In this document: positions 570 through 63,729 of the stretch, one piece after another
How positions within the stretch are numbered: position 1 is the first letter of the stretch
Layout: each line of letters starts with the position of its first letter
NCBI RefSeq assembly: GCF_017916365.1
Contig: NZ_JAFMSU010000001.1
Span: 124,001-188,000, forward strand
Source of the DNA: Rufibacter roseolus
GTDB taxonomy: Bacteria; Bacteroidota; Bacteroidia; Cytophagales; Hymenobacteraceae
Direction of reading: 5' to 3'
Length of the DNA: 64,000 nucleotides
The notes under the pieces: model-generated
The model's database searches: none
Told to the model about the DNA's origin: nothing
The model's input: only the letters and a program-made list of their open reading frames with translations
Translations under genes and position numbers: made by a program

Positions 570-611
570 CCCGTTTTGGAGCCGATTTAGAAAAACCAGC
601 TCCAAAACGGG
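570..611. repeat. Dispersed palindromic repeat, copy 1
   Basis: Perfect 13-bp arms (CCCGTTTTGGAGC at 570-582 and its complement at 599-611) surround a 16-nt centre that itself holds the weaker inner pairing of the family. It sits just downstream of a canonical terminator and 13 bp from the end of the convergent PRC-barrel gene, so it is not needed as the terminator of the upstream gene. See the finding on the palindrome family. Confidence 0.85.
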
Positions 612-623
612 ATTACAATCCTA

Positions 624-1448
624 CTACAAGCCGATGGCTTTCCGTTTCAAGGCAGTGAATTCCTCTTGGGTGATGGTCCCCTGCTCTAGCATTGCGCGCA
701 GCCTTTCAATGGTGGCAATGTCTTCCTGAACAGGTCTGCTTTCCATTCCAGCGCTTGAGCCCATGGAGCCTATACTGGAGGTAGAATGCAAGCCGGTTCC
801 TGACCCCATCCCAGAAGTGGAATGCATACCAGACCCTGAACCTAAGCCAGAGTCTGCGTGCATGCCTGGGTTAGTGTTGAAGTTGGGGTTTGTGTTGAAG
901 TTAGACGTAGAAGTATGGAGGTGGCTTTGGTCCTGCGGCATGGTTTGGGACCGCTGGTGCCGATTTCCATAGAACCTATCCTCATTGAACTGGTCTCGGC
1001 CGTAGAAGTCTGCATTAGGAGATGCCTGGGCCGTAGTCTGCTGCGCGTAGGTGTCATTAGGGCTGGTTACCGCGTGCATAACCCGGTACTCGTACTCAGA
1101 GTCCACGGCTCCGCCCCGGTAAAAAGGGAAACGGGCCAGGGAGTTCCTATCCAGGCTAATGAACACCTGATCGCCGTCATCGTCTAACTGCGCCGCCCCA
1201 ATAGGGATAAGGATATGCCGCGGGTCTGTGTCCACGAGCACGTGCTCCTTGTCTACGTCTATGTCAAGGTACCGCACTTTCATGAGCTCGCGGTCTACAA
1301 TGAGGTCATCTACCTTGCCTATGCGTTTGCCGTCTGAGCCAATCACTTCCCAGCCGCGCACGTCCAGGTTATGGTTGGCCACTTTGAAATCTCTCAAATC
1401 GTGTAAGGGGGCCAGCCGTGCCAGTCCCTCGTTTGCATGGTTTGCCAT
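624..1448 (-). CDS. PRC-barrel domain protein with C-terminal SHOCT motif
   Basis: The 274-residue protein has an N-terminal PRC-barrel domain (about residues 20-115; GWEVIGSDGKRIGKVDDLIV and YLDIDV are typical), the fold shared by RimM and the photosynthetic reaction-centre H subunit. The middle (about 130-235) is a low-complexity Gln/Asn/Ser/Gly/Met region with repeats such as GMHSTSGMGSG. The last 35 residues (IERLRAMLEQGTITQEEFTALK) match a SHOCT motif, a short helical pair often appended to bacterial proteins and thought to aid oligomerisation. There is no signal peptide, so it is probably cytoplasmic. In Bacteroidota such genes often lie near stress genes. Its exact role is unknown. A small membrane protein gene starts 27 bp upstream and may be cotranscribed. 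Confidence 0.8.
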   Translation of the reverse strand: MANHANEGLARLAPLHDLRDFKVANHNLDVRGWEVIGSDGKRIGKVDDLIVDRELMKVRYLDIDVDKEHVLVDTDPRHILIPIGAAQLDDDGDQVFISLDRNSLARFPFYRGGAVDSEYEYRVMHAVTSPNDTYAQQTTAQASPNADFYGRDQFNEDRFYGNRHQRSQTMPQDQSHLHTSTSNFNTNPNFNTNPGMHADSGLGSGSGMHSTSGMGSGTGLHSTSSIGSMGSSAGMESRPVQEDIATIERLRAMLEQGTITQEEFTALKRKAIGL

Positions 1449-1475
1449 TGGTTTCTTGTTTTTAGGGTTATTTGA

Positions 1476-1667
1476 TCAATAAGACAGAAAACCAGGGACC
1501 AAGGACATGATCATCCCAGAGGTAGGGGCGCCTGTGGTTTCAGGGTTTCCGCCCTGCGCCTCAAAGAAGTATTTGTATAAAAGATAGCCTACCACCAGCA
1601 GTATAAGCAGGACTATAATCCAGGCCCAGCTGGAGCGTTTTTTGGGTTCAATGTTTATTTCAGCCAT
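1476..1667 (-). CDS. Small single-pass membrane protein
   Basis: The 63-residue protein has a charged N-terminus (EPKKRSS), one clear transmembrane helix at about residues 14-34 (WAWIIVLLILLVVGYLLYKYF) and a short Gly/Pro/Thr-rich tail. I recognise no family. It lies 27 bp upstream of the PRC-barrel gene on the same strand, which suggests a two-gene unit. Its length and composition resemble small stress-related membrane proteins, but that is only a resemblance. Confidence 0.6.
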   Translation of the reverse strand: MAEINIEPKKRSSWAWIIVLLILLVVGYLLYKYFFEAQGGNPETTGAPTSGMIMSLVPGFLSY

Positions 1668-1762
1668 AGTTTTATTTTGTTTAGATCAATACGGCAATAC
1701 CGTTTAATTGCGTACGAAGCTTTTTTACAGAGGTTTATCCTCAGCCAAACACAAACAAAACA

Positions 1763-1900
1763 ATGGAGAGTAGCAACCGGGCGTCAACATCGGCGAAGCC
1801 AACCGCAGGCCGTGGCGCGGCACCTGGTTTAAACAACCAGGTTTCTGGAGAAAATCAGGGATATGAATTTTCTTTTACCCGCAGGCAAGTAGTCACTTAA
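1763..1900 (+). CDS. Possible small ORF, 45 residues
   Basis: In the gene-poor stretch 1668-2043 there is an ATG-started frame of 45 codons ending TAA. The product is polar, rich in Ser, Ala, Gly and Asn, and ends RRQVVT. No ribosome binding site or known motif is visible. Bacteroidota often lack strong Shine-Dalgarno sites, so this alone does not rule it out. The rest of the stretch holds only the hairpin at 1957-2010. Confidence 0.2.
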   Translation: MESSNRASTSAKPTAGRGAAPGLNNQVSGENQGYEFSFTRRQVVT

Positions 1901-1956
1901 TCTCTGGGCTGAAGATGCCGCCTATCAACCTTTTGCCAGGCTATTGCTCAAAAAAG

Positions 1957-2043: not shown

Positions 2044-3048
2044 TTATTTATCCTGCCCCGGTATCTGCGGAAACTGGATAAACTCGCCCTCCGGGCTGAA
2101 GAGCATGCTCATGGGCTCCTGGGGATCGCGCAGGATATCAGCTTGGGAGATGCCCCAACGGGTCCACATGGTGGCCAGTAATTTGGCGTAGGAACTGTTC
2201 TGCCAGGGGTTGAAGATCACGTTGGTGACATCGTCAATGAGTGTGTCCATGACCAGGTGATCGTCCTGGGGTTTTACGGGCCGGAGCAGGTAATCTGGGA
2301 TCACATTGAGCAGATACCCCGCATAGAAAACGCGGGCGCTGAACTCGGCGGCCTGGATGGGCTGCAACTGCCGCAGCTCAATCTCTTGCCACACGCGCCG
2401 CATGGCGTCTTTGATCATGCCGTTGTCCAGGAGACAGGCCACAATAAGGATATTGTCCAGGCGCAGGCTGAACATCATGGTAGACAGTTCATCGCGGAAC
2501 TCAAACCGGGTAGGCTCAGAGCTGGCGTCCACGTCTATCACAAACAACGAGCCCGGGATAAAATCTGGGAATTCCATGGGCACCCGCAGGGATTGCAGCA
2601 CCCTGAAGAAAGCCTGGAACTTCATGAGCATCTTGGGCTGCTCGCTTACGGCGTGCTCTGGCTGCACCAGCGGGTTCTGCTCTTTGATGAGTTCGGTGAT
2701 GAGGGTGCCGTAGAACATCTTGCCCATCCATTGGTAGAGCAGTTTATCGTCCAAGGCCTGCATGCCGGCTATGCCCTGGGAGAGCGCCTGTTGCACCTTG
2801 TCTTCCAGCGGCTGCAGGTGATTTGTCTGGCAGTTCTGGCAGCAGGGAATCTTCAGGTCCTGGTAAGTGACCACGCTTTGGTCCAGCAGCCGGAGCGGCT
2901 CATGGGCAAAACCGTACTCCTCCATGAGCCAGGCCGGAAAAACCGATGTCTGCTCGTCTGCAGTCACATTGGAGCCGCACAGAAAACAGATGTGGTTCCC
3001 GAAACGCATTCCTTCAAACGGATCAAAAATGGACAGGTGCTGCTGCAT
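2044..3048 (-). CDS. Hypothetical zinc-ribbon / degenerate HNH-like protein
   Basis: The chosen ATG at 3048 gives 334 residues. The open frame continues upstream to 3459, but that part overlaps the opposite-strand SIMPL gene. Near the N-terminus a CxxC pair (CFLCGS) is followed by FPAWLM and then PCCQNCQ. This spacing recalls HNH-type proteins (CxxC, then EHVFPxWL, then CxxC), but the usual His of the EH pair is replaced (DEQTSVFP), so nuclease activity is doubtful. The remaining 250 residues are mostly helical with no motif I recognise. A perfect -7 box (TATCTTTG, 3083-3076 on the minus strand) lies 27 bp upstream of this start and supports it. Function unknown. Confidence 0.6.
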   Translation of the reverse strand: MQQHLSIFDPFEGMRFGNHICFLCGSNVTADEQTSVFPAWLMEEYGFAHEPLRLLDQSVVTYQDLKIPCCQNCQTNHLQPLEDKVQQALSQGIAGMQALDDKLLYQWMGKMFYGTLITELIKEQNPLVQPEHAVSEQPKMLMKFQAFFRVLQSLRVPMEFPDFIPGSLFVIDVDASSEPTRFEFRDELSTMMFSLRLDNILIVACLLDNGMIKDAMRRVWQEIELRQLQPIQAAEFSARVFYAGYLLNVIPDYLLRPVKPQDDHLVMDTLIDDVTNVIFNPWQNSSYAKLLATMWTRWGISQADILRDPQEPMSMLFSPEGEFIQFPQIPGQDK

Positions 3049-3075
3049 AGGGGTAAGAGACGTGTAATGAGTCTG

Positions 3076-3083
3076 CAAAGATA
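3076..3083 (-). promoter_or_regulatory. Candidate -7 box for the zinc-ribbon gene
   Basis: On the minus strand the sequence reads TATCTTTG, a full match to the Bacteroidota -7 consensus TAnnTTTG, 27 bp before the ATG at 3048. No clear -33 TTG box at the usual distance was found. Confidence 0.4.
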
Positions 3084-3195
3084 CACACAAGACCGGCTTG
3101 GCCCGCACTCCTGCGCTGGTGGCATCCGTTAAACCATGCCGCCTAAAACCCGGCATGGTACTTGTAAACCCTTTTTTGAATATATTTATAACACT

Positions 3196-3903
3196 ATGAA
3201 AACCACCCTTGCTTTCGCTCTGGCCTTTGTGGCCTCGTTCCTCTCCTTTTCTTCCCAGGCCCAGCAGACCCAGTTGCCTCCTTTGGTAAGCACCTCGGGG
3301 TTGGGAGAAGTGAAAGTGCAGCCCGACCAGGTTGTCTTTATGACCGGCGTGGAGATACGGGAGAAAACCCTGGAAGACGCTCGCCGCGTGGCCGACCAAC
3401 GCACAGCCGCCCTGCTGAGTTACCTGAAGAAGAACGGAGTAGAAGACAAGCACGTGCAAACCGCCTACCTTTCCCTACAGCCAGTGTACACCGGCGAGTT
3501 TGGCCAGACCACGCCCCAGTTCTACCTGGCTACGCGTTCTATCTCCATCACGCTCAACAAGCCAGATAAGTTTGACGAACTCATGGCCGGCTTGTACAAA
3601 GCGGGCGCCAACCGGGTAGACGGCATCAACTACCAGAGCTCCCAGTTGAAGAAGCATCAGGAAGAAGCCCGCAAAAGAGCCGTGCAGGATGCCAAACAGA
3701 AAGCAGTGGCGCTGGCCTCGGAGTTGGGAGCCAAAGTTGGAAGACCTTACCAGATAAACGAAGCCGTCAACAACCTACCCATAGGTCCGGCCATGTATAA
3801 AACCGCCATGCGGGAGCAAGCCATGGATGCAGGCGGCACTACCTTGGCCTTGGGAGAGATCATCATCACCTCTACTGTGCAGGTGAGCTTCTTGCTGGAA
3901 TAG
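3196..3903 (+). CDS. SIMPL domain (DUF541) periplasmic protein
   Basis: Starting at ATG 3196, the 235-residue protein opens with a Sec signal peptide (MKTTLAFALAFVASFLSFSS, cleavage likely after SQA). The mature part starts with GLGEVKVQPDQVVFMTGVE and contains the long helix EARKRAVQDAKQKAVALASELG, both typical of the SIMPL/DUF541 family (E. coli YggE, animal SIMPL). These proteins form periplasmic oligomers, and YggE is linked to oxidative stress tolerance. The precise role is unresolved. An upstream in-frame ATG at 3136 would add 20 residues before the signal peptide and is less likely. Just before the start lies TATATTTA, close to a -7 box. The gene is divergent from the zinc-ribbon gene. 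Confidence 0.85.
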   Translation: MKTTLAFALAFVASFLSFSSQAQQTQLPPLVSTSGLGEVKVQPDQVVFMTGVEIREKTLEDARRVADQRTAALLSYLKKNGVEDKHVQTAYLSLQPVYTGEFGQTTPQFYLATRSISITLNKPDKFDELMAGLYKAGANRVDGINYQSSQLKKHQEEARKRAVQDAKQKAVALASELGAKVGRPYQINEAVNNLPIGPAMYKTAMREQAMDAGGTTLALGEIIITSTVQVSFLLE

Positions 3904-4044: not shown

Positions 4045-4084
4045 CGCATTTTTGGGGTGTTTTTCACGAAACTGCCTAAAAGCG
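4045..4084. repeat. Dispersed palindromic repeat, weak copy
   Basis: CGCATTTTTGGGG is opposed by GCCTAAAAGCG across a GTTTTTCACGAAAC centre. Pairing is imperfect but keeps the family order (outer CG and T-run, inner GTTTT/AAAC). It lies upstream of the RNase D gene. Confidence 0.4.
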
Positions 4085-4148
4085 GCAACGCGAGCCTACG
4101 GTTACCCGTCAAGGAACTAACCTGTTTTTTGGGTACATTTACAAGATT

Positions 4149-6660: not shown

Positions 6661-7215
6661 GGGCTTGTTTTATTTTTTAGTGAATTAAACAAAAGCATAC
6701 CCACTTCCTAAACGATCATATTCATATTTAGGACAATCAAAAAATCCTTAAATAAATTAATTAAACCCAATATAAAGATATAGATGTATTAAGTTTAAAA
6801 GTTTAATAATCAGTCTATTACGAAATTTTACAAACATTTTTAGCGAGAATAAAGGAGAAAATTTTTCGGCAAAATTCAGTATAAATACTGTTACAAACCG
6901 GCTGTACTTACTCTCAGGAATTTCAGTAAAATAAATATATAACTAAGATTAACTTATCATAATATTCCTTGAGAACTGCAGTCTATTTCAGGATTCAATT
7001 TAAAAAAACGAGCCTTAAACGCTTTTATGAAAAATTTAGAATAAACAAAGGAATATAGATAAGTCATAAATAGAATAGTTATAAAAATTGAAGCAGAGAA
7101 ACCTCTCTGCTTCCTTTGGGCAAACAAACCGTTTCATGTAATTAACCAGGAGTACTTCAATCTTAACTGAGTATTTACCGTATATACAACCCAACGAAAC
7201 CAATAAACCAAAACT
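6661..7215. other. AT-rich intergenic stretch, no gene seen
   Basis: This 555-bp stretch is much richer in A and T than the genes around it and separates two divergent genes. No RNA gene or long hairpin was recognised. It must contain the promoters of the catalase gene and of the small lipoprotein gene. The composition contrast could mark xenogeneic silencer binding or simply an upstream regulatory region. Confidence 0.6.
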
Positions 7216-9344: not shown

Positions 9345-9372
9345 AGAGGATGGCCCAAAGGACCTGATGAAC

Positions 9373-9408
9373 GTTCTGGGGCTGTTTTCCAAAAAACAAG
9401 GCAAAAAC
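9373..9408. repeat. Dispersed palindromic repeat, weak copy
   Basis: GTTCTGGGGCTGTTTTCC is followed by AAAAAACAAGGCAAAAAC. The inner GTTTT/AAAAC pairing is kept and the outer arms are degraded. It lies just upstream of the dehydrogenase start. Confidence 0.4.
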
Positions 9409-9473
9409 CATAACTCCCTCTCAGCCTGTAGCGCAATTTAAGGGCTCTGGCTGTAATTGTGAATTATAACCTG

Positions 9474-9549: not shown

Positions 9550-12465
<2,916 letters not shown>

Positions 12466-12486: not shown

Positions 12487-12520
12487 GAAAACGCCTGTGG
12501 AGCCTTCCGCAGGCGTTTTC
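12487..12520 (+). terminator. Terminator after gcvP
   Basis: GAAAACGCCTG/CAGGCGTTTTC with three further pairs and a 6-nt loop, then T-rich sequence. It lies 21 bp after the gcvP stop and directly touches palindrome copy 4. Confidence 0.9.
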
Positions 12521-12521
12521 T

Positions 12522-12558
12522 GTTTTAGAGCCGTTTTTCTTAAAACAGGCCCTAAATG
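12522..12558. repeat. Dispersed palindromic repeat, copy 4
   Basis: GTTTTAGAGCCGTTTTTC and TTAAAACAGGCCCTAAAT form the nested arms. It begins one base after the gcvP terminator. Confidence 0.75.
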
Positions 12559-12758
12559 GCACCTCAGACAAGGAGAAATATTTTCTTCCAGAATAAACCG
12601 ATTGGTATAATGCAGGCATAGTTTTTGCGTTATGATTGCACAAAAGGAACATCCCTAGAAACCATCCTTTCCGCCCTGATGTTATCCATTTGAAGCGGAA
12701 AGACCATTTAGACGATGTTTTTTCTGATTCTTTCACTACACTAAAACTGTACAATTCA

Positions 12759-13403: not shown

Positions 13404-13443
13404 AAAACAGAAGAGCCACCCAATGGGGTGGCTCTTCTGTTTT
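13404..13443. terminator. Perfect bidirectional terminator hairpin
   Basis: Two 18-bp perfectly complementary arms (AAAACAGAAGAGCCACCC and complement) surround AATG. The A-tract and T-tract at the ends allow it to work for the DUF4136 gene and for the convergent OmpA-family gene. Its last GTTTT overlaps palindrome copy 5. Confidence 0.92.
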
Positions 13444-13475
13444 AAGGCTGTTTTTAGAAAAACGAGGCCAAAACG
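13439..13475. repeat. Dispersed palindromic repeat, copy 5
   Basis: GTTTTAAGGCTGTTTTT is followed by AGA and AAAACGAGGCCAAAAC. It shares five bases with the preceding terminator and reaches the stop codon of the OmpA-family gene. The order of AAGGCT and GGCC halves is reversed compared with most copies, as if inserted in the other orientation. Confidence 0.75.
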
Positions 13476-15461
13476 TTACTTGATCTTGAACTCCGTACGG
13501 CGGTTGAGTTGGTGCTGGTCCTCGGTACATTCCACGCCATCGGCGCAGCCGTTGATCAGGACGGTTTCGCCGTAACCTTTCCAGGTGAGTCGGTTCCTCG
13601 CGATGCCCTGGCTCACCAGGTATTCCACCGCCGACTGGGCGCGGCGCTCAGATAAGACCTGGTTGTAGCCGTGGCCTTCGCGGCTATCGGTGTGGGAGCC
13701 TAGCTCAATCTTAATGCTGGGGTTGTCTTTGAGCATGCGCACCAGTTTGTCCAGTTCCTTGGCGGCATCGGGGCGGATGTTCCACTTGTCCAGGTCATAG
13801 TAGATGTTCTCCATGGCAATCACCTGGTTCTTCTGGCTCTTGTCGAAGATAAGCGTCACGCGGGTGGTATCGGCTAGCTTCACCGTGTCAATGGCCACCA
13901 ATGCTGACTGCGTCAGGTACCCGAATTTATCGCCTACCAGGTCATAAGTAGTTCCTTTCTGCACCCCAAACTTGTATTCGCCGTTGCGGTCTGAGAAAGC
14001 CACCACAGAATCGTTGGTTTCCTTCGGAGTCAGTTTCAGGCGGACATCGGCCAGGGGCTGGGTGATGGCGCGCTTGCCTTTTACTGGTACTCTCTCTAAA
14101 GTAGTCACAAACAGAACGGCGTTGCTCAACAGTTTGAACGAGTAGATGTCATCGGTGCCGTTTCCGCTGTCGCGGTTAGAGGACAGATAGCCTACTTGGG
14201 CGTTGTTCGCCCCGCGCATGAACACCATCCCGAAATCATCTTTAGGGGAGTTCACAGGTGCGTGCAGGTTTTCCGGTTTGCTCCAGGTGGCGCGGCTGCC
14301 TTTCACCTTGAAAACATCCAGACCACCGAAGCCGGGGTGCGTGTCTGAGGAGAAGTACAGGTTGCCGTTCTGGTCGAAGCCCGGGAACATCTCTTTGCCC
14401 ACGGTATTCACCATGTTGCCGGCGTTCATCGGCTGACCCCAGGTGCCGTCGGCCTGCAGTTCTGAGTAGTAGATATCGGTCTCGCCGTAGCCGCCGGGTT
14501 TGTCAGAGACAAAGTACAGCACCTGCCCATCGGGCGAGATGGCCGGGTGGCCCACGCTGTATTCCTCCACCTTATTATGGGCGAAAGGAGTCACCTGCGT
14601 CCAATTGCCTCCGTCGCGGCGGGCCGAGAAGATCTCCAGGCGGTTCACGTAATCGCTGGAAAGCGGTTTCTTCACCCAGCTGGTAGGGTCTACGTTCACG
14701 TCTTTCTGCTTCTTTTCCACCATGTGGGTGCGGGTGAAATACATGGTCGTGTTGCCGCTATCCAGCACCGCCGGGCCGTCATGGTACACCGAGTTCAGCG
14801 TGTTACTCGCGATGGCGGGCATTTGCCAGGTGCTGTCTGCGTTGCGCTGGGCATAGAACATCTGCAGGTACGGGCGGCCGGTCCAGCCGTAGGTGCCGGC
14901 GTCTACGTCTTTGTCGCTGCTCACGTTGCCGCCGCGGTCTGAGGTAAACAGGATACCCTGATCATACACCGTCGGGCTGAAGTCGGCGTTGCCGGAGTTG
15001 AGCTGGGTCTCGTTCACCACAATGGCGGAGGCAGGCTCTTCCAACAGCTTCAACGCAGCGTCTGAGGCCTGGGCCTTCGCGTTGGCTCTTGCGGCCTCGG
15101 CGGGCACCTTGCGGGCGTAATCCTGGTACTGGGTCTTCGCCTCGAAATACTTCCCGTTGCTCCGCAGAGCCTCGGCATAGTAATAGGTGTTGATCGGGTC
15201 TGCCTCGGGCATGGCCACTACTTTGGCGTACCATTCCTCCGCCTCCTTCGTGCGTCCTGTTAGGCGGTAGGCATCTGCCAGGCGCTGGGCACCTTTTAGA
15301 TCAGGTTCCTTTTTGGAAAACACCTCCTGGTACTCTTCAATGGCCAGGGAATAATCGAAGTTCTCGTACAGCCGATCGGCTTTGCGCGTAGTTTGGCAGC
15401 CGCTTAGGGCCAGGCTACCGGCAAGGAAAGAAAGTAAAAGTGATTTGTATAGATTGTGCAT
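13476..15461 (-). CDS. PorE-like OmpA family lipoprotein (TPR, beta-propeller, regulatory-like domain, OmpA)
   Basis: This 661-residue protein has a lipobox (LALSGCQTTRK, Cys near 22), TPR-like helices (about 30-120; YENFDYSLAIEEYQEVF), a PD40/WD40-like propeller (about 150-400; repeats such as SPDGQVLYFVSDKPGGYGE and GNLYFSSDTHPGFGGLD), a carboxypeptidase-regulatory-like beta domain (about 440-530) and a C-terminal OmpA peptidoglycan-binding domain (about 545-661; ELGSHTDSREGHGYNQVLS). This order matches PorE, a type IX secretion component, and the OmpA partner of SprF-type operons. It lies 18 bp after the PorP/SprF gene, which follows the adhesin gene, so it probably anchors or assists secretion of that adhesin. 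It could be a paralogue rather than the core PorE. Confidence 0.85.
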   Translation of the reverse strand: MHNLYKSLLLSFLAGSLALSGCQTTRKADRLYENFDYSLAIEEYQEVFSKKEPDLKGAQRLADAYRLTGRTKEAEEWYAKVVAMPEADPINTYYYAEALRSNGKYFEAKTQYQDYARKVPAEAARANAKAQASDAALKLLEEPASAIVVNETQLNSGNADFSPTVYDQGILFTSDRGGNVSSDKDVDAGTYGWTGRPYLQMFYAQRNADSTWQMPAIASNTLNSVYHDGPAVLDSGNTTMYFTRTHMVEKKQKDVNVDPTSWVKKPLSSDYVNRLEIFSARRDGGNWTQVTPFAHNKVEEYSVGHPAISPDGQVLYFVSDKPGGYGETDIYYSELQADGTWGQPMNAGNMVNTVGKEMFPGFDQNGNLYFSSDTHPGFGGLDVFKVKGSRATWSKPENLHAPVNSPKDDFGMVFMRGANNAQVGYLSSNRDSGNGTDDIYSFKLLSNAVLFVTTLERVPVKGKRAITQPLADVRLKLTPKETNDSVVAFSDRNGEYKFGVQKGTTYDLVGDKFGYLTQSALVAIDTVKLADTTRVTLIFDKSQKNQVIAMENIYYDLDKWNIRPDAAKELDKLVRMLKDNPSIKIELGSHTDSREGHGYNQVLSERRAQSAVEYLVSQGIARNRLTWKGYGETVLINGCADGVECTEDQHQLNRRTEFKIK

Positions 15462-16467: not shown

Positions 16468-18687
16468 TTAGCGCACTACCTGTACCGGTCCTCTGAATAC
16501 CTGGTCTTTGCCGTCACAACCGCGCACGCGCAGCACGTAGAAGTAAGTGGCTTCTTCCAGGCCGGTGGCTCGCCAATCGTTCTTGTAGCTCTTGGTTTTG
16601 TAGATTTCGTTGCCCCAACGGTTGTAGACGGTGAGGTCATTGTCAGGGAAGTTCAGCAGATTCCGGATCACGAAGGTGTCGTTGATGCCGTCGCCGTTCG
16701 GGCTGAACACCGTTGGGATCACGATCTCGGTGCCCGCATCGGCGGCTCTCACCTCTACTGAGGCTTCGTTGCTGGCGCAGGTTGAACCGGTGGTGCTGGC
16801 GCTTACCTTGAGGGTACCTACCGCATTGGCAGCAGCGGCTTTCAACGTCACGGTAGTGCCAGAAGTAGTCGTGCTGTTATCGGCGAACGTGAAGCCGGCC
16901 GGGGCGGTCCAGGTGTAAGTGACACCCGCTACTGGGTTAGAGATGGCGTAGGTCAGGCCCGTACACGGTCCGCTGTTGTCCAGGATGATCGGAGTTGCCG
17001 GTGGCGTGCTTGGGGTCACGTCTGGGGTAGAAGCCGTAGCCGTACCGCAGGTGTTAGAAGCCACTACCGTTACTTTCCCTGGGCCAGTACCTGCCTTCAC
17101 CTGGATTTGCGTTCCGGTGGCAGACCCTATTCTTTCCCAACCTGTTCCAGACACGCTCCAGGTATAAGTCACGCCCGCCACTGGCTGGCTGATGCTGTAT
17201 TGGTAGGTCGCCCCAGCGCACAAAGCAGTTCCCGGACCAGTGATGACCGGCGTAGTCGGCGCGGTTCTTACCACAAGTTCAATTGGGAAGGCTTGGCTGT
17301 TCTGGCAATTGCCCGTGGTCACAGCTACCACCGTAATCGGATAAGTACCCGGTGCCGTGGTGGCGCTTGCTCTCACCGTGAAGGAAGTCAGCGACTGCGC
17401 TTCAATGGTGATACCGCTGTTAGCCGGCGCCACAATGGCAAGGCTTGTCACACCCGCCGAGACGTTACTAACGGTAAAAGTAGTGGTACCGCCCACGCAC
17501 ACTTCCTGCGGACCTACTACGTTAGGCCTTGCCGGACGCACGCAGGTAGTGGCCTCATCGGTGCCTCCGTTGTTTTCTATAACCGCTACGTTGGTAATTT
17601 CTCCCAACATCAACGTCTTTGCAGTGATCGTCAAGGTGGCAACTGAGTTCGCTGGCAAGGTGCCGATGGTCCAGATGCCGGTGGTTCCGTTGTAGGTTCC
17701 CTTGTCCGCTACCGCTGGTGGCACCAGGGCCAGGCCCTCAGGTAATTTGTCTTCCACGATTACATTAGTAGCATCCGCGGCTCCTGAGTTTGTGACTCTG
17801 ATAGTATAGATGACATTATCGCCTAAGGTCACGGTGGTGGCGTTTACTGCCTTGGTGATGCTGAGGTTCGCGCTTCCAGGGGTTGTGCCGCCGCCGCCAG
17901 TTCCTCCATCGCCATCATCTCCGTCGTCTCCATCATCGCCGCCGTTGTTAGTGGTGAGCGGCTCCGGCAAGGAAATGTTATTGTTGTTGAGGGTTACGGC
18001 TCCGTTCGTAGACAGTACCCGTCCCACCAAGGTGGAGCTAAGGCTTAGGGTGGCGTTATTCTGCACCACAAAGTTTCCACTCAAGGCAGAAGGTGTGGTT
18101 AGCATCCCTCCGGTGCCGATGGTCACATTCCCGGTCACCCGGAAGAAGATATTGTTAGGGTTGGCATTGAAGACATTGATGGCTGAGCCTGGATCAATGA
18201 CCAGGTCACCGTTCACCTGGATGATGAACACCGAATTGGGGTTTCCCTGTCCGTCAAACTTCAGGCGGCCGCTGATGCGGGCATTGCCATCAAATTTATA
18301 CACGCCCCGGGTAAGCAAAGTACCGCGTACGCCGGCCTCTCCGGGCGTAAAGCCCTCTCCCAGGGTTTGGCCCGTCAGGTTACGGGTGGGAGTGAATTGC
18401 CCCAGTTCATTGTAGACCCGCACCACATCGGTTTTGGCAGTGGCTGCGGCAGCGTTGCCCCGTTGCGTATCGCCGAGCACTTTGCCTGTGGGGAAGCCCA
18501 CCACGACAGCCCCGGGCGAAGTGCCTAGATCGCCGTAGATAATACTGCTCCCGGTGCTGGTAACCGCACTACTCCCTAACACTGCATACTCGCGGGCCGC
18601 TCCCAGAGAAGGAGCCGTTAGGGTTTGAGCACTAGAAGAGGAAAGAACAACGTAAAACGCTGCCAAAAAGAGTAAAAGTTTCTTCAT
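16468..18687 (-). CDS. Ice-binding-like (DUF3494) adhesin with DUF11 domain and type B type IX sorting domain
   Basis: The 739-residue exported protein has a signal peptide (residues 1-20, ending SSSAQ), a DUF3494 ice-binding-like beta-solenoid (about 25-235; LGAAREYAVLGSSAVTSTG), an Asp/Gly-rich linker (about 250-270; GGDDGDDGDDGDGG), a DUF11 repeat (about 272-370; NLSITKAVNA), three Ig/PKD-like modules (about 385-650) and the gliding-motility C-terminal domain (last 85 residues; VIPTVFSPNGDGINDTFVI, VYNRWGNEIYK). The last domain is a type B sorting signal for type IX secretion. Many DUF3494 proteins are adhesins rather than antifreeze proteins. PorP/SprF and PorE-like genes follow at 34 and then 18 bp. 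The acidic linker may bind calcium. Confidence 0.88.
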   Translation of the reverse strand: MKKLLLFLAAFYVVLSSSSAQTLTAPSLGAAREYAVLGSSAVTSTGSSIIYGDLGTSPGAVVVGFPTGKVLGDTQRGNAAAATAKTDVVRVYNELGQFTPTRNLTGQTLGEGFTPGEAGVRGTLLTRGVYKFDGNARISGRLKFDGQGNPNSVFIIQVNGDLVIDPGSAINVFNANPNNIFFRVTGNVTIGTGGMLTTPSALSGNFVVQNNATLSLSSTLVGRVLSTNGAVTLNNNNISLPEPLTTNNGGDDGDDGDDGDGGTGGGGTTPGSANLSITKAVNATTVTLGDNVIYTIRVTNSGAADATNVIVEDKLPEGLALVPPAVADKGTYNGTTGIWTIGTLPANSVATLTITAKTLMLGEITNVAVIENNGGTDEATTCVRPARPNVVGPQEVCVGGTTTFTVSNVSAGVTSLAIVAPANSGITIEAQSLTSFTVRASATTAPGTYPITVVAVTTGNCQNSQAFPIELVVRTAPTTPVITGPGTALCAGATYQYSISQPVAGVTYTWSVSGTGWERIGSATGTQIQVKAGTGPGKVTVVASNTCGTATASTPDVTPSTPPATPIILDNSGPCTGLTYAISNPVAGVTYTWTAPAGFTFADNSTTTSGTTVTLKAAAANAVGTLKVSASTTGSTCASNEASVEVRAADAGTEIVIPTVFSPNGDGINDTFVIRNLLNFPDNDLTVYNRWGNEIYKTKSYKNDWRATGLEEATYFYVLRVRGCDGKDQVFRGPVQVVR

Positions 18688-19099: not shown

Positions 19100-19130
19100 A
19101 AAAAAAGCCCCGCTGTTGGGCGGGGCTTTT
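19100..19130 (-). terminator. Terminator after lipA
   Basis: On the minus strand AAAAGCCCCGC, a TGTTGG-type loop and GCGGGGCTTTTTT form an 11-bp stem with a T-run, 30 bp after the lipA stop. Confidence 0.88.
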
Positions 19131-19160
19131 GATGCTGTTTTACGAAAATGGGCTCAGAAA

Positions 19161-20054
19161 CTATACGTGCACGTGGCGCTCTGCATGGTAAGATGAACGC
19201 ACCAAAGGACCGGACTCAACGTACTTCAATCCGCGGCTCAGGCCTTCTTCGCGGTAATGGGCGAACAGGTCCGGGTGGATGAACTCGGCTACCTCAATAT
19301 GCATCTTCGTAGGCTGCAGGTACTGGCCCAAGGTAAGGATATCCAGACCGTTGGCAGCCAGGTCATCCATGGCTTCGTACACCTGATCTTTGGTTTCGCC
19401 CAGGCCCAGCATGATGCCGCTCTTGGTACGCTTGCCGTACGCTTTGGTACGCTTGATCTGCTCTAAGCTGCGGTCATATTTGGCCTGCGGACGTACCTGG
19501 CGGTACAGGTTTCTCACAGTCTCCATGTTGTGCGAAACCACTTCCTGCCCGGCAGAAATCATCACCTCCAGCGCTTCCCAGTTCGCTTTCACGTCTGGGA
19601 TAAGCGTTTCAATGGTGGTTTCCGGCGAGAGGTTCTTGATCTGCACAACGGTTTCATGCCATACACTGGCGCCACGGTCTTTCAATTCGTCGCGGTTCAC
19701 CGAGGTGATCACGGCATGCTTCACGCCCATGAGTTGAATGGCTTCGGCCACGCGGCGAGGCTCATCCAGGTCATATTCGTTGGGGCGGCCTGTGGCCACG
19801 GCGCAGAAAGAACAGGAGCGGGTACATACGTTGCCCAGAATCATGAAGGTAGCCGTTCCGGCTCCCCAGCACTCTCCCATGTTAGGGCAGTTTCCGCTTT
19901 CGCAGATGGTATGTAGTTTATAGGTATCTACCAGTTGTCTGACTTTGGCGTATTCTTTACCCACGGGCAGTTTTACGCGCAGCCAGTCTGGCTTGCGGGT
20001 TTTAGTTTGAGCTTCTGCTGGTTGGATAACCGGCAACGCAATCAATTGATCCAT
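19161..20054 (-). CDS. lipA: Lipoyl synthase
   Basis: This 297-residue radical SAM enzyme inserts two sulfurs into octanoyl groups on lipoyl domains. Both iron-sulfur clusters are visible: the LipA-specific CxxxxCxxxxxC ([13 protein letters not shown] near residue 50) and the SAM-cluster CxxxCxxC (CTRSCSFC near residue 77). Later motifs VTSVNRDEL and GLGETKDQV are also diagnostic. Length is normal. Clients in this window would be the lipoylated partners of GcvP and of the 2-oxoacid dehydrogenase E1. No lipB is adjacent. A -7 box lies so close upstream (5 bp) that the mRNA may be leaderless. Confidence 0.97.
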
Positions 20055-22411: not shown

Positions 22412-22451
22412 CTGTTTTAAGGCCGCTTTAGAGAAAACAACCCTAAAATAG
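22412..22451. repeat. Dispersed palindromic repeat, copy 6
   Basis: CTGTTTTAAGGCCGCTTT pairs with GAAAACAACCCTAAAATAG with mismatches. It lies between the E1 gene stop (11 bp away) and the small lipoprotein gene. Confidence 0.7.
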
Positions 22452-24522: not shown

Positions 24523-24561
24523 CCGTTTAGAGGCCAGTTTAGGGAAATTATGCTAAAAACG
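24523..24561. repeat. Dispersed palindromic repeat, copy 7
   Basis: CCGTTTAGAGGCCAGTTT is opposed by AAATTATGCTAAAAACG. A perfect -7 type box (TACTTTTG, 24515-24522) touches its left side, although no plus-strand gene follows within 1 kb. From 24562 to 24767 nothing else was seen. Confidence 0.7.
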
Positions 24562-24767
24562 ACCTTCAACCTGGGTTTGGTCTGCGCGGCTAAACCATAT
24601 ACCTGATTTATTTAACGAAATGAACGCGAAAGCTATCCATCCTATTACCAGCTAAACTAGCGCGACTGCAAGAAGCAGGAAGAACGTTCACCAAAACGAG
24701 CAAATAAGCATCCATAAAGCCTTATCCTGGAGATAACTACTTCACAGACAAACCAAGGCACATAAAA

Positions 24768-37534: not shown

Positions 37535-37554
37535 CTGCAATAGCCTATATCCTA

Positions 37555-37590: not shown

Positions 37591-37605
37591 GCCGGTTGCG
37601 GCAGT

Positions 37606-42017: not shown

Positions 42018-42066
42018 AATCCCCGTTTAGGGCCCCGTTTTTTAAAAACAGCCTTAAACGGGGATT
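42018..42066. repeat. Dispersed palindromic repeat, copy 15
   Basis: Outer arms AATCCCCGTTTA and TAAACGGGGATT are perfect over 12 bp, and the inner arms CCCCGTTTTTT/AAAAACAGCC are imperfect. AATCCCC is specific to this copy. Confidence 0.88.
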
Positions 42067-43151: not shown

Positions 43152-43200
43152 AGTTCTAGGTCTGTTTTTCTCTTATTTTCCTAAAAATAGCCCCTAAACT
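43152..43200. repeat. Dispersed palindromic repeat, copy 16
   Basis: AGTTCTAGGTCTGTTTTT is opposed by AAAAATAGCCCCTAAACT around TCTTATTTTCCT. It lies 8 bp before the FNR-like regulator start, so it may be in the leader of that mRNA. Confidence 0.7.
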
Positions 43201-43208
43201 CGCTGCCC

Positions 43209-43778: not shown

Positions 43779-43779
43779 G

Positions 43780-44399: not shown

Positions 44400-44749
44400 G
44401 GATTGTTGGTTGTTCACCACCCCACTTTACGGGTGCTCTTCCTAAATCAGAAGGTGGAGTCTCTGCCTGCGCTATACCGCTTGCTCTAGACCTCGCAGCG
44501 TCCGGAGGTCTTGCGAGCGTCTGCGCCTATAGACTTGCGCCAGATATACGGTGGTTTGAGGCGAATTTTGGAAAATGAATAAGAAAACGCCTACCCATTC
44601 CTAACCCTCCGAGGAGGGGAATCACAGCAGGGAGAGGAAGAATCTCAGAAACAAGCGCTCTGACCATATCTGGCGAAAAACGGTGTAAGACAGGAAACTT
44701 ATTGGGATGCCTAAGGCAATCTCCGGTTCTAACCCTTAGCTAAGGCGGC
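44400..44749. other. Intergenic stretch, no gene seen
   Basis: About 350 bp. It holds an 18-bp imperfect direct repeat (ACCTCGCAGCGTCCG then GTCTTGCGAGCGTCTG, 44492-44522) and a small hairpin CCCTCC-GA-GGAGGG at 44605-44618. No RNA gene or ORF is convincing. It separates convergent genes. Confidence 0.5.
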
Positions 44750-46183: not shown

Positions 46184-46473
46184 AAGCTTCTGTTTAAGTT
46201 TAACACTGAGTTAATATATGATTTAACTTAGTATAAAAATTACTTTTCCTGCATTTATTTAAATTCATTAACCTGAAAAATCAAGTAAATTCACATTTTA
46301 TATATACGCATATTTATATAACACATTGATAACCAAGTATTAAGATCAGTACTGTTTAAAGATTTTTTTGATTCTGCAGTTCATAGAGTACATTAGGCTC
46401 TTGATTGAAACGAAAGACCAAAACGGACCCTTTTCAGGCAGATGAGCTTATAAGAAAAGCGTCTACGGGATAT
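46184..46473. other. AT-rich intergenic stretch, no gene seen
   Basis: About 290 bp before the palindrome at 46474. It is AT-rich and should contain the promoter of the thioredoxin-NHL gene. No ORF or RNA gene was recognised. Confidence 0.5.
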
Positions 46474-46510
46474 GTTTAGCGGCTGTTTTGAAAATTATGG
46501 GCCTGAAACG
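46474..46510. repeat. Dispersed palindromic repeat, copy 17
   Basis: GTTTAGCGGCTGTTTTGA is opposed by AATTATGGGCCTGAAACG. It lies 76 bp beyond the end of the Hint-domain gene. Confidence 0.65.
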
Positions 46511-46586
46511 AAAAAATCCTGGAGCACAGGCCCCAGGACTTAGTCAGGTACGAACGAAAGATTCCAAAAAAGTAATAAAGGGTAAG

Positions 46587-47732: not shown

Positions 47733-47774
47733 GCCGTTTTAGGGCTTGTTTTCAGAAATCAGGGGTGAAACGCC
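47733..47774. repeat. Dispersed palindromic repeat, copy 18
   Basis: GCCGTTTTAGGGCTTGTTTT is opposed by AAATCAGGGGTGAAACGCC. It lies 35 bp after the aminotransferase stop. Confidence 0.7.
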
Positions 47775-50603: not shown

Positions 50604-51117
50604 ATTCCTACTGCGTTGTTTGCTAACTAAGTTTAGGCAAACAAAATGAGGAAAACAACACGTAAAAACCACATATACTTCTCATTATCAAACCGCTACC
50701 TCTATTTCTTTGTCAAATATTCAATAAATCTATATTCTTTCTGCCTAGTTCTTAACTTAGCTTAGACTCTACTGGCATCAGATAGCATTTTGGCAAATTC
50801 ACGATTAACATTTTTCCTGTAATTTTCTTTAAAAAATATTAACCATCCAACTTAGATCCTCTTAAATTATGCATTCAGCATCGCTTCTTGTTTTTAGGTT
50901 CATTTTTGAAAATCAGGCTTGAATCAAAGCAACGCTACTTACCTCTTATTCACCTGAAAGGTCTCCCTTGTATCTAGTGCCTGCTGCACTCCTTATAAAT
51001 AGTGTTTCTAATTATAGTACCTTTATCTGCCAGTAAGCAAGTAAATTGGCCAGAACCTGCACTATTCCAGGCAGAGCAGAAAGCACCACGATCAAAACAC
51101 ACTCCGGCAAAACCAAC
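50604..51117. other. Intergenic stretch with palindrome copy 19, no gene seen
   Basis: About 510 bp, AT-rich at the left, with a degraded palindrome (GTTTTTAGGTTCATTTTTGA and AATCAGGCTTGAAT, 50890-50926). It contains the promoter region of the amine oxidase operon on one side and of the GspG-like gene on the other. Confidence 0.5.
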
Positions 51118-51651: not shown

Positions 51652-51693
51652 TCCGTTTTTATCCTAGTTTCTCCAAAACAGCCTGTAAACGGA
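51652..51693. repeat. Dispersed palindromic repeat, copy 20
   Basis: TCCGTTTTTATCCTAGTTT is opposed by AAAACAGCCTGTAAACGGA. TCCG/CGGA is specific to this copy. Confidence 0.75.
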
Positions 51694-54182: not shown

Positions 54183-54202
54183 CGGAGAAACAAAGCCGTG
54201 TT

Positions 54203-54239
54203 CGTTTAGGGGCTATTTTGCTGAAATCAGGCTTAAAGC
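54203..54239. repeat. Dispersed palindromic repeat, copy 21
   Basis: CGTTTAGGGGCTATTTTG is opposed by GAAATCAGGCTTAAAGC. It begins 20 bp after the nnr stop. Confidence 0.7.
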
Positions 54240-54304
54240 AGGTGCTCTTCTACTGCCCTTTAGGAATAAATGGGATGCCTATTGGCAACTTGCGTACCAC
54301 CATG

Positions 54305-57597: not shown

Positions 57598-57617
57598 TCG
57601 CTTTGAATTCTGTTATC

Positions 57618-57654
57618 TTTTAGAGGCTCTTTTTATCAAAATGCCTCCAAAACG
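57618..57654. repeat. Dispersed palindromic repeat, copy 22
   Basis: TTTTAGAGGCTCTTTTTAT is opposed by AAAATGCCTCCAAAACG. It lies 20 bp before the PafA-like start. Confidence 0.75.
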
Positions 57655-57674
57655 TAAATATAGTTGATAAATAC

Positions 57675-57708
57675 TTTGGAATGCCTTTTCTAAAAACAGC
57701 CCAGAAAT
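57675..57708. repeat. Dispersed palindromic repeat, degraded second copy
   Basis: TTTGGAATGCCTTTTCT is followed by AAAAACAGCCCAGAAA. It forms a tandem pair with copy 22, much as copies 13 and 14 do. Confidence 0.5.
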
Positions 57709-57737
57709 ATAATCTTGAGATAACAAGCCCTTAAAAA

Positions 57738-60969: not shown

Positions 60970-61464
60970 TTAGCTAAGGTGCGTGTCTTGCAGGTAGCTC
61001 TGTACCAGGGCACGCTGGGCCTGCTCATCCTGCAACTCACGTCTGATGAGTTTCTCCGCGATGTCAATAGACAGGGTAGCCGCCAGGTTCTTCACCTCGG
61101 TGAGGGCTGCCTTTTTCTCGTTCTGGATAGACACACGGGCTTGCTCAATCATGCGCTGGCCTTCTTCGTTGGCTTTGGCACGGGCACCTTCCACCAGGCT
61201 GGTGGCGGCGTCGGTAGCATCTTTGAGAATGCGGTCACGCTCAGCGCGGGCTTCGGTCAAAAGACGCTCGTTGTCGGCTTTGAGGGCCTGCATTTCCAGT
61301 TTGGCTTTCTCAGCCATGGAGAGGGCAGCGTCAATGTTGTCTTCGCGCTCACGCAGCGCCTTCATGATAGGCTTCCAGGCAAACTTAGACAACAGGAAAA
61401 GTACCACCAAGAAGGTGATGGTCTGCCAGAAAAGCAATCCGATACCAGGAGTTACTAATTGCAT
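60970..61464 (-). CDS. atpF: ATP synthase b subunit
   Basis: The 164-residue protein begins with a membrane segment (IGLLFWQTITFLVVLFLLSKF) and continues as one long charged helix (residues 30-164; EREDNIDAALSMAEKAKLEM and so on), the normal form of the peripheral stalk subunit. It dimerises. It follows atpE by 122 bp. Confidence 0.95.
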   Translation of the reverse strand: MQLVTPGIGLLFWQTITFLVVLFLLSKFAWKPIMKALREREDNIDAALSMAEKAKLEMQALKADNERLLTEARAERDRILKDATDAATSLVEGARAKANEEGQRMIEQARVSIQNEKKAALTEVKNLAATLSIDIAEKLIRRELQDEQAQRALVQSYLQDTHLS

Positions 61465-61586
61465 TTTGTTTCTTTTATAAGGGGCTGAAGGATTCTCCTT
61501 CTCTCAAAACTATGAACTCTACTTACTGTTATTGCGCCTCCCTGTCCTGACCAATCGTCAGGAAGGGAAACGCAACAAATGCATTC

Positions 61587-61859
<273 letters not shown>

Positions 61860-61876
61860 TTAAAAAAGAATTCAGA

Positions 61877-62953
61877 TTAATGGTGTGCTTGCGCAGCATG
61901 CGGGCCGTCACCAAAGCCCATATCATCATGGTGGTCATGTTCTTCTACCGCACCGCCAAAGTACATAGCAGACAGCAGCGTAAAGATATAGGCCTGCAAC
62001 AGCGCCACGAACAACTCCAGGAAGTTCATGAAGGTGGCAAACGCTACGCTCAATGGACCAATGGCAATGCTCTGGAAGATAAAGATCAAACTGAACAAGC
62101 TCAGGATGATGATGTGACCTGCGGTGATGTTGGCGAAAAGCCGGACCATCAAAGAGAAAGGCTTGGTAAAAATACCAATCACCTCTACCGGGATCATAAT
62201 GGGAGCCAACCACTTGGGAACACCCGGTGTGGCAAAAATGTGCCCCCAGTAAGATTTATTCCCGTTGAATACCGTCAGGATTAAAGTAAGGAGAGCCAAT
62301 ACAAGGGTAACGGCAATATTACCGGTTAAGTTAGCGCCACCAGGCAATAAACCCAGCAGGTTGTTGAACCAGATAAAGAAGAACACGGTGAGCAGGTATG
62401 GCATGAAGCGCTCATACTTAGGACCGATGTTGGTCTTGGCAATATCGTCTCGGATGAAAACAATGATGGGCTCAAAGAATGACTGCAGGCCACGCGGGGC
62501 TTTGCCGCGGTTCTTGCTGTAAGCACCGGCAATAGAGAAGAACACCAGGAACAGCAGAAGCACACTCAGAAAAAGCGAAGCCACGTTCTTGGTGATAGAG
62601 AAGTCCATTGGACCTACGTGCTCCGTTTCACCTTTCTCGTTCACCTTGGTGCGCGGCTCACCCTCTTCGTTGGCATAATAGATATGCCCGTGCTCCATCA
62701 CGTAGCCGTTATACGGCTGCAGTTCATGATGCTCGTTGTAGAACTTAGAGGCCAAGAACACATCCAGGCCATTTTCCCCATATAATATAACCGGCAAAGG
62801 CAGCACCACACCGTCGGCAAAATGCCAGGTATAATCATCGCCAATATGGTGGGAGATCATCTCCCCGGGGTTAAATTCTCCACCCTCGGCAGATTCTGCC
62901 GCCTGGGCTGAAAAAGTAAGAACAGTAAGCAGGAAAACGAGTATCTTCTTCAT
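61877..62953 (-). CDS. atpB: ATP synthase a subunit
   Basis: The 358-residue protein has an N-terminal extension with a signal-like segment (MKKILVFLLTVLTFSAQAAE) and about 60-120 extra residues before the conserved core, as usual in Bacteroidota. The core has FIWFNNLLGLLPGGANLTGN and PFSLMVRLFANITAGHIIIL with the essential Arg (VRLFAN). The His-rich tail (EEHDHHDD, AQAHH) could bind metal. It forms the proton half-channels with the c ring. Confidence 0.96.
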   Translation of the reverse strand: MKKILVFLLTVLTFSAQAAESAEGGEFNPGEMISHHIGDDYTWHFADGVVLPLPVILYGENGLDVFLASKFYNEHHELQPYNGYVMEHGHIYYANEEGEPRTKVNEKGETEHVGPMDFSITKNVASLFLSVLLLFLVFFSIAGAYSKNRGKAPRGLQSFFEPIIVFIRDDIAKTNIGPKYERFMPYLLTVFFFIWFNNLLGLLPGGANLTGNIAVTLVLALLTLILTVFNGNKSYWGHIFATPGVPKWLAPIMIPVEVIGIFTKPFSLMVRLFANITAGHIIILSLFSLIFIFQSIAIGPLSVAFATFMNFLELFVALLQAYIFTLLSAMYFGGAVEEHDHHDDMGFGDGPHAAQAHH

Positions 62954-62997
62954 TAAGAGCTAATTAAAAGCAATGGATTTTATGTAACCGCATTGCC

Positions 62998-63387
62998 CTA
63001 TGCATGCTTTTTTGAATTTTGGCGCAAGTTACTCAACAATGCGTAGATTTCAAATCCGGTATAAATAAAATAAAGGGCGAAAAAGTTTGAGACAAATTGC
63101 ACTAACCCTTCTGCATGGAAATATCTATATACAAAAACTGCTATTATAGAGAACACCATACGCACCCCCATAGCGGCAAAGTAGTAGGCGTGCAGGTTAC
63201 CTGAATCATTCTTGAGCCCCAGGAAGGCCACATAATGGGCAAACCCGGTCACAAACACAAAGAAGCACAGCATGTACCAGATATAGGAATGAACCACGGT
63301 GTCTCCGGTGAACATCAGCAGTACGGTAATCAGGAGCACCAGCAGCCCGGTGAGCAGAATCATCCCTCTAATAAAACTCACAGGCAC
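62998..63387 (-). CDS. AtpI-like hypothetical membrane protein of the ATP synthase operon
   Basis: The 129-residue protein has about four transmembrane helices (MILLTGLLVLLITVLLMF, YMLCFFVFVTGFAHYVAF, then two more). The GTG at 63387 follows the stop of the AtpZ-like gene directly. Position, size and topology suit the ATP synthase assembly protein AtpI (subunit I), which helps build the c ring, but sequence identity is not evident. The gap to atpB is 44 bp. Confidence 0.7.
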   Translation of the reverse strand: MPVSFIRGMILLTGLLVLLITVLLMFTGDTVVHSYIWYMLCFFVFVTGFAHYVAFLGLKNDSGNLHAYYFAAMGVRMVFSIIAVFVYRYFHAEGLVQFVSNFFALYFIYTGFEIYALLSNLRQNSKKHA

Positions 63388-63624
63388 TTATTTCTTACGG
63401 GTAAGTGATACAATAACAGAATACACGGTGGCAAACACCGCCACCACTAATAGGCCCAGCGTCCACCACGGGGTGTTGTTGTGGAAATAGGCATCCAGTT
63501 TACGCCCCCCAATAGCGGCCACGGACATTACCACAATCATCTGGAAAGCCAGGCCCGAGTATTTCAGGTAAGGCTTTACCCCTTGCTTTTCTTCGGGGCT
63601 AGACGGATGTTGGGTTGGTTCCAT
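63388..63624 (-). CDS. AtpZ/AtpI family protein
   Basis: The 78-residue protein has a charged start (KPYLKYSGLAFQMIVVMSVA, in part), two transmembrane helices joined by a short basic turn (GGRKLDAYF), and is typical of AtpZ, a small protein at the head of ATP synthase operons linked to magnesium or calcium transport and complex assembly. It begins the operon here. Confidence 0.82.
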   Translation of the reverse strand: MEPTQHPSSPEEKQGVKPYLKYSGLAFQMIVVMSVAAIGGRKLDAYFHNNTPWWTLGLLVVAVFATVYSVIVSLTRKK

Positions 63625-63645
63625 ACGGGTTGGGTCCTATTTGCA

Positions 63646-63653
63646 CAAAGGTA
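63646..63653 (-). promoter_or_regulatory. -7 box of the ATP synthase operon (TACCTTTG)
   Basis: The minus strand has TACCTTTG, an exact TAnnTTTG match, 22 bp before the AtpZ-like ATG. A TTTC about 23 bp further upstream may act as a poor -33 box. Confidence 0.5.
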
Positions 63654-63689
63654 CTAATCTCTGGTTCATGGGGACAGAAAAGATTTTCG

Positions 63690-63729
63690 CTGTTTTGGCC
63701 CTGCTATAGATAAAACAAGCCCAAAACAG
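63690..63729. repeat. Dispersed palindromic repeat, copy 23
   Basis: CTGTTTTGGCC(CTGCTATAG) is opposed by AAAACAAGCCCAAAACAG. It lies 36 bp upstream of the ATP synthase promoter box. Confidence 0.75.

Follow-up and report, generated by a model that had tools for sequence, protein, structure and literature searches.

A symmetric 40-base intergenic mark of one bacterial genus that looks more like a protein-binding site than a jumping repeat

We examined a window of 64,000 nucleotides from Rufibacter roseolus (contig NZ_JAFMSU010000001.1, positions 124,001 to 188,000), between whose genes lies a dispersed palindromic element that a first-pass annotation had listed in 26 copies. The element is a symmetric 40-base mark, found in most intergenic gaps of one genus and kept in place over long evolution. 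Its arm is approximately CCGTTTTNGGGCTGTTTT, followed by 4 bp and the mirrored arm, making up a 40-bp dyad. Scoring used a symmetric weight model made of an 18-bp arm, a 4-bp centre and the mirrored arm; iteration in the window produced it, and 264 kb of the source genome (G000; other G-numbers denote comparison genomes and L-numbers the loci examined) served to refine it. Genes were called with a home-made caller based on codon usage, and their start positions are therefore uncertain.

The 26 listed palindromes are real. Every one of them reaches 18 bits, and 25 reach 22 bits, against a best score of 17.4 bits in the reversed window. The half core of the first-pass annotation, allowing up to three mismatches, matched 28 times in the window versus a mean of 2.45 in 100 shuffles, and the full dyad pattern matched 15 times versus 0.00 (shuffle counts take both strands, and one palindrome may count twice). 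Under the first weight model, the best score in 20 order-2 Markov sequences was 21.5. At a threshold of 18 bits, the 264 kb of G000 contain 135 copies and the reversed sequence one; 424 kb hold 209, and by extrapolation the 5.52-Mb genome carries about 2,700.

The core originally proposed stood in part: its T-runs are near invariant, but it is only approximate and its GC-rich spacer varies. The unit is better taken as 40 bp, with a 4-bp centre in 128 of the 135 copies. Arm positions 3–5 and 15–17 (counting from 0) are 82–98% T, while spacer and centre are variable. By our geometry, about 4 and 15 bp separate the T/A runs from the axis, or about 0.4 and 1.4 helical turns, and the four runs thus fall roughly on one face of the DNA. 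Isolated half arms number 70 versus 37 in the control at 12 bits and 30 versus 12 at 14 bits, which is only about twice control and far below the 207 arms within elements, and the dyad is therefore the main unit. A gathering-threshold scan of Rfam matched the element to no family, and a covariance model (R1) searched against the whole genome scored 150 of 8,896 candidates and is unfit for counting copies.

Several copies in the window (coordinates carry no strand) are set in longer stems. At 571–610 (41.5 bits, convergent gap) the arms extend into a longer imperfect stem; at 1957–2010 the element (1964–2003, 41.8 bits) lies within a perfect stem of 25 bp, after which the minus strand has a T-run, a terminator-like subclass; at 32727–32778 the element (32733–32772, 40.9 bits) has the outer stem AAGAGCC/GGCTCTT; and at 42018–42066 an outer stem found by folding surrounds the element at 42023–42062 (32.9 bits). 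Convergent gaps also hold a pair at 37496–37535 (38.7 bits) and 37552–37591 (39.1 bits) and the copy at 54202–54241 (40.9 bits), and divergent gaps hold those at 9371–9410 (32.8 bits, present in 13 of 15 relatives having that gap), 24523–24562 (32.4 bits), 43162–43201 (32.1 bits, right before a start codon) and 50888–50927 (33.2 bits). The copies at 4046–4085 (31.9 bits) and 27638–27677 (44.5 bits) recur in 13 of 14 and 7 of 7 relatives having the respective gaps, and a stop codon lies 10 bp before 22412–22451 (41.4 bits). The copy at 12520–12559 (43.2 bits) immediately follows a conventional terminator-like hairpin, and that at 13437–13476 (41.7 bits) adjoins another, where G027 and G063 have the hairpin between two elements. 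The hairpins at 13409–13476 and L009:3418–3526 are terminator-like, and their stem and tail share T/A runs with the adjoining element.

The copy at 34877–34915 (34.6 bits) is a variant with a 3-bp centre, and those at 32798–32837 (27.4 bits) and 57671–57710 (weak, 19.0 bits) are each the second of their gap. Further copies lie at 26827–26866 (35.0 bits), 29611–29650 (33.5 bits), 46472–46511 (28.3 bits), 47734–47773 (35.4 bits), 51653–51692 (37.7 bits), 57616–57655 (30.6 bits) and 63690–63729 (35.8 bits). Six additional candidates of at least 18 bits had been overlooked: elements at 6983–7022 (26.4 bits) and 19124–19163 (25.4 bits), and weak candidates at 1456–1495 (19.3 bits), 10860–10899 (20.0 bits), 44551–44590 (20.2 bits) and 63865–63904 (20.7 bits). 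Only the candidate at 10860 sits within a gene, and the 26 copies listed earlier all fall outside called genes, as had been claimed for them.

Over the 264 kb of G000, 119 of the 135 copies fall between genes, while 12 lie in called genes and 4 at stretch ends. Among gaps of 50 bp or longer, at least one element is present in 93 of the 155 that are codirectional, 36 of the 49 convergent ones and 24 of the 48 divergent ones. These 252 gaps divide into 99, 126, 26 and 1 with zero, one, two and three or more elements, compared with 145.5, 63.7, 25.0 and 17.7 for random placement by length; the 126 singly occupied gaps exceed the largest number, 87, reached in 2,000 simulations. Density also varies, with 30 copies in 9,286 bases of convergent gap, 71 in 34,425 of codirectional gap and 18 in 10,200 of divergent gap. 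The distribution of spacings to TANNTTTG shows a rise at 60–120 bp when read away from the element; these copies are non-independent, and we do not take the rise as proof.

Occupancy was compared between species wherever two neighbouring genes had adjacent orthologues and the gap between them measured 60 bp or more. Between G000 and G042, 19 gaps were occupied in both, none in G000 only, one in G042 only and 16 in neither, so that 35 of 36 agree. With G022, at a median protein identity of 75.8%, the corresponding counts were 14, 1, 4 and 9 (23 of 28 agree), and agreement with G000 reached 27/31 in G006, 20/22 in G048, 20/21 in G051, 9/10 in G012 and 19/23 in G017. Among the small sets, those from G027, G063 and G054 came just under 0.05, and those from G032, G045, G037, G057 and G060 did not reach 0.05. 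Long gaps can also stay empty, as at 61464–61877 (5 of 5 relatives) and 3048–3196 (14 of 14). At gap 43, species that lack the element show, by eye, remnants rather than a clean empty site. No lag was visible at gaps beside lineage-specific genes, of which 32 of 53 were occupied, compared with 127 of 196 conserved gaps; many of the ‘novel’ genes of G012 in this comparison reflect just lost synteny.

To define constraint we used gapped alignments of orthologous gaps, in which the figures for T-runs, spacer and flank are conditional on detecting the element in one species only. Between G000 and G042 the T-runs differ at 4.7% of positions (10/215; 6/214 in the reverse direction), the spacer at 24.5% (51/208), the centre at 43% (31/72) and the flank at 22% (138/626), with 11.8% (529/4,486) for the remaining gap and 28.2% of 6,972 four-fold sites. 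Differences between G000 and G006 were 12/146 in T-runs, 114/447 in flanks and 46.9% at four-fold sites, and between G017 and G022 they were 11/155, 131/503 and 38.5%, respectively, with 17/52 in the centre. Judged from these alignments, the T-runs are held under selection and the rest of the element drifts. The central 4 bp differ between G000 and G042 above both flanks and four-fold sites. Loop inversion was considered as the cause of this fast centre and rejected, with 1 inverted case versus 0.72 expected among 92 non-independent pairs; whole elements lie nearer the reverse complement in 19 of the same 92.

Species write the element in dialects. Per-species models give the arms CCGTTTTcGGgCTCATTT in G051, cCGTTTAGGGGCTgTTTT in G048, cCGTTTTTGGCCTGTTTT in G017 and ccGTTTTngGgCTGTTTT in G000, at 0.30–0.55 copies per kb and 15–25 bits of information per arm. 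We then traced copies with at most four mismatches from their species consensus in gaps common to another of eight species. Such a near-consensus copy was the sole copy of a gap occupied elsewhere too in 9 of 10 cases in G048, 6 of 8 in G022, 4 of 4 in G017 and 2 of 3 in G012, and these single copies appear to have changed in place or to have been replaced. In G051, this held for 3 of 11. In-place change and gain of new copies both occur, given these single copies and the extra copies of G051 described below.

For the range of the element we counted matches to an exact pattern, which misses a share of the copies. Every one of the 16 genus genomes was positive, with 169 to 1,430 matches each (control 0–5), which bears out the expectation of hundreds of copies per genome. 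The other 134 genomes of the family gave 0–2 matches each, the control level, and 394 other genomes drawn from the phylum, three of them from the same family, gave 0–4 (controls 0–4). Hymenobacter, where copies had also been anticipated, gave 0 matches in two named genomes, the only loci used from a contig scan with a universal protein whose matches were mostly in distant genomes. The first-pass annotation knew no named family with this core, and among the open-licence papers listed by our searches, judged by titles and the starts of abstracts, there is likewise no description of it. A recent survey of repetitive extragenic palindromes (REPs; PMC12306157) has among its Bacteroidota entries two Flavobacterium and one Thermoflavifilum, and the terms Rufibacter, Hymenobacter and Cytophag- do not occur in its main text.

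Two records lie apart from the chromosomal pattern. Contig C4 of the source genome (102 kb) has two elements in the 100 kb read. It shows a GC fraction down to 0.42, codon usage partly unlike that of the chromosome and a mostly foreign composition (L165, L177–L180), together with weak matches to partition proteins, and is perhaps a plasmid or integrative element; comparison by plasmid similarity gave no match. A virus record (L191:5571–14333) carries three exact copies between genes in the first 20 kb read, one of them right before the gene for a head maturation protease, and also encodes a primase. From its copies, we infer that this virus infects the genus of the element.

The element resembles the binding site of a protein more than a plain jumping repeat. 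We tentatively favour, with somewhat less than even confidence, a reading in which it is mainly a double-stranded DNA site for a candidate genus-specific protein at transcription-unit borders. A dimer or tetramer would read the four T/A runs of the twofold-symmetric 40-bp site; this reader would be a sequence-specific protein of the genus, and sister genera would be without that specificity. The element would mark the borders of transcription units, with a probable architectural or insulating role, and a minority of sites would additionally be built into terminator-like hairpins. As the preference of the protein drifts, sites would be rewritten, mostly in place, into species dialects, and some species, G051 foremost, would additionally have gained new copies. 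The element shows a dyad with recognition points under selection, as would be expected of sites of nucleoid or boundary proteins. It is possible, though more doubtful, that the genus has a chromosome-boundary system of its own, with a protein at most transcription-unit borders, some 2,700 co-evolving sites, dialect change largely in place and viruses that adopt the mark. Short intergenic palindrome families are usually read as selfish, whereas here the positions persist and the sequence is rewritten species by species. As a natural experiment, the family bears either on the possible co-evolution of a DNA-binding protein with its thousands of sites or on the possible in-place homogenisation of a repeat, and it points to a protein of Bacteroidota that has yet to be described.

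Several observations weigh against a protein-binding site. No binding protein was identified; an extra HU paralogue was considered and none was seen, PF00216 not being expanded in nine genomes of the genus compared with 36 others. One constraint count takes only pairs that a T-rewarding model found in both species. The arms are not fully independent of each other: pairing is in excess at position 11 in each of the two groups of species (217 and 175 copies, counting orthologues) and at 8, 12, 14 and 15 in one group, as well as at 17–21 in both and at 22 in one; folding beats the arm-swapped control in 6 of 6 sets (−14.4 versus −11.8 in G000; marginal in G022). G051 exceeds the copy number of any other species in 6 of 32 shared gaps, versus 1 to 3 gaps with such an excess in each of seven other species; these excess gaps hold 6 of the 11 near-consensus copies traced in G051, and in two cases a gap with two copies pairs a perfect with a degenerate one, which speaks for gain by copying. 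Mismatch counts are overdispersed in G051 (11.2 versus 3.9) and G048 (12.4 versus 4.3), arm scores correlate in G051 (r 0.47), and G048 has a pair identical at 40 of 40 positions with unlike flanks. Loci of Y1 transposases carry 2.13 copies per 3.2 kb versus 1.47 in random gene-centred windows, an excess that is weaker near the gene itself. The three exact copies in the virus record belong here too.

Much of this would fit a domesticated REP-like palindrome that was copied in the ancestor of the genus, retained for function and is still copied or homogenised in some species. We consider this account unlikely. The element does have the general character of a REP, being short, palindromic, intergenic (119 of 135 copies in gaps) and high in copy number (209 in 424 kb), and REP-associated tyrosine transposases (RAYTs) occur in the source genome and its relatives. 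The extra near-consensus copies of G051, the identical 40-mers of G048, the overdispersed mismatches of both and the copies in the virus record all speak for copying. In between-species data, G000 and G042 agree in 35 of 36 gaps, and G051 has extra copies in the 6 of 32 noted above; copying between or beside existing sites may occur and is likely in G051. The excess gaps of G051 lie in segments L142 and L160–L162 and often hold a consensus-like copy next to a degenerate one.

Mobilisation by a RAYT, as initially suggested, is not supported. The GTAG and CGTC tags of REPs occur at only 4 and 5 of 406 ends, with about 11.1 expected, and the distribution of the element does not follow that of the transposase: G017 has 456 pattern copies yet no Y1_Tnp match at E 0.001, and Y1 is present in 59 of the 74 genomes from the rest of the family, which have just 0–2 pattern matches. 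The source genome has three Y1 genes, of which the two that were typed are both RAYTs (NF047646), and at the two of these loci inspected (L020 and L021) the flanking hairpins differ from the element. The RAYT genes there (L020:1399–1996 and L021:1331–2001) have short flanking palindromes of their own, with 2–3 near copies each in 424 kb. Around 31 Y1 loci of the genus, taken from 45 matches, there is no clear excess within 400 nt, with 1.13 elements versus 0.89 around 131 control genes of like size, and elements on both sides of 8 of 31 Y1 genes versus 19% of the controls. Across the whole loci (100 kb), 66 copies stand against about 46 expected. The RAYT gene at L119:349–2374 in G060 has seven elements in 3.2 kb, a number reached by no random window and unlike the other Y1 loci. 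Kept orthologous positions, selected T-runs and the remnants at gap 43 also tell against a mobile repeat, as does the absence of any pair above 0.85 identity among 128 copies of G000. There the arm scores correlate at −0.17 (n=195; the detection threshold also lowers r) and the mismatch variance is near binomial (6.9 versus 6.2), so that G000 shows no age classes.

Rather improbable, in our view, is a lineage-specific transcription terminator or 3′-end hairpin that acts at the RNA level in both directions. The element is indeed denser at 3′ ends, comparing convergent with divergent gaps, and its hairpins are stabler than arm-swapped ones. An extended outer stem (at least 5 of 6 outer pairs) is present in 71 of 406 copies, many of them orthologous; 69 of the 71 lie at codirectional or convergent gaps, and T follows the stem at 3.75 of 9 positions versus 2.49 of 9. 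Terminator-like hairpins near the element number 73 before it, 42 after it and 14 on the same centre, and in codirectional gaps the element is commoner beside such a hairpin (56/97 versus 91/240). These hairpins are separate and adjoin the element, however, and in convergent gaps there is no association (61/106 versus 65/96). The stem is not generally maintained, as inner positions 4–7, 9 and 10 pair as independent arms would in both species groups, and no more than 2 of the 6 outer pairs form in 238 of the 406 copies, among them 50 in divergent gaps and 26 in genes. T after the element reaches just 0.36, a slight rise rather than a U-run, and with half of divergent gaps occupied the element is not restricted to the 3′ side of genes; single copies, such as that at 1957–2010, do have the U-run. 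Since the inner arms lack covariation and divergent gaps are occupied, a hairpin terminator does not fit most copies. We conclude that a minority is built into terminator-like hairpins, and the general function of the element would lie at the DNA level.

That the element is a DNA uptake signal whose dialects parallel those of Neisseriaceae is very improbable. The DNA uptake sequence (DUS) is described as reaching thousands of copies, having dialects and forming inverted pairs close to terminators, but also as common within genes (PMC3630211), whereas just 12 of 135 copies of the element are in genes. The element shares the dialects and the high density; its main unit is the dyad and not a short one-sided word that is also common in genes (isolated half arms, 70 versus 37 in the control, remain far below the 207 in elements), and it has no long invariant core. 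Gyrase binds some E. coli REPs, and the stagger of type II topoisomerases is 4 bases. A preferred site of such a common enzyme, with its specificity altered in the genus, would suit the twofold axis, the 4-bp centre in 128 of 135 copies and the centre that differs above its flanks between G000 and G042, but these enzymes are to our knowledge universal while the element is limited to one genus, the centre is not much faster than the flanks between G017 and G022 (17/52 versus 131/503), and we regard this explanation as the least probable.

Two other features of the window are separate from the element. An inverted repeat at 26993–27089, with 29-nt arms that are 93% complementary and 39 nt between them, is unrelated to it. 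The region 16468–18504, next to a PorP/SprF gene, encodes a large protein that carries an ice-binding-like domain together with a type IX secretion signal.

The nearest known kinds are REPs, the dialects of uptake sequences and the sites of nucleoid proteins. REPs and bacterial interspersed mosaic elements are described as palindromes of 20–40 bp that lie between genes in high copy number, more often at 3′ ends (PMC3733652); PMC2817692 and PMC8266576 concern the same kind of system. The element is likewise short, palindromic, intergenic, abundant and rich at 3′ ends, with some copying suggested; unlike REPs with their RAYT, it is symmetric, has no GTAG/CGTC tag and no clear RAYT link, and it keeps orthologous positions genus-wide, with selected T-runs and dialects. 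Intrinsic terminators share with it the inverted repeat near gene ends, and a minority of elements double as terminator-like hairpins, but most have no maintained stem or U-run and the element also stands in divergent gaps. The DUS of Neisseriaceae has thousands of copies and species dialects, some in terminators, as the element does; it is a word of only about 10 bases that also occurs in genes (PMC3630211), whereas the 40-bp dyad of the element is largely restricted to gaps. Nucleoid-associated protein sites with phased A-tracts (PMC3940949) resemble the element in having A/T runs about one helical turn apart and many degenerate sites, and the element differs from them in its 15–25 bits per arm, its strict symmetry, its placement mostly once per gap and its restriction to one genus.

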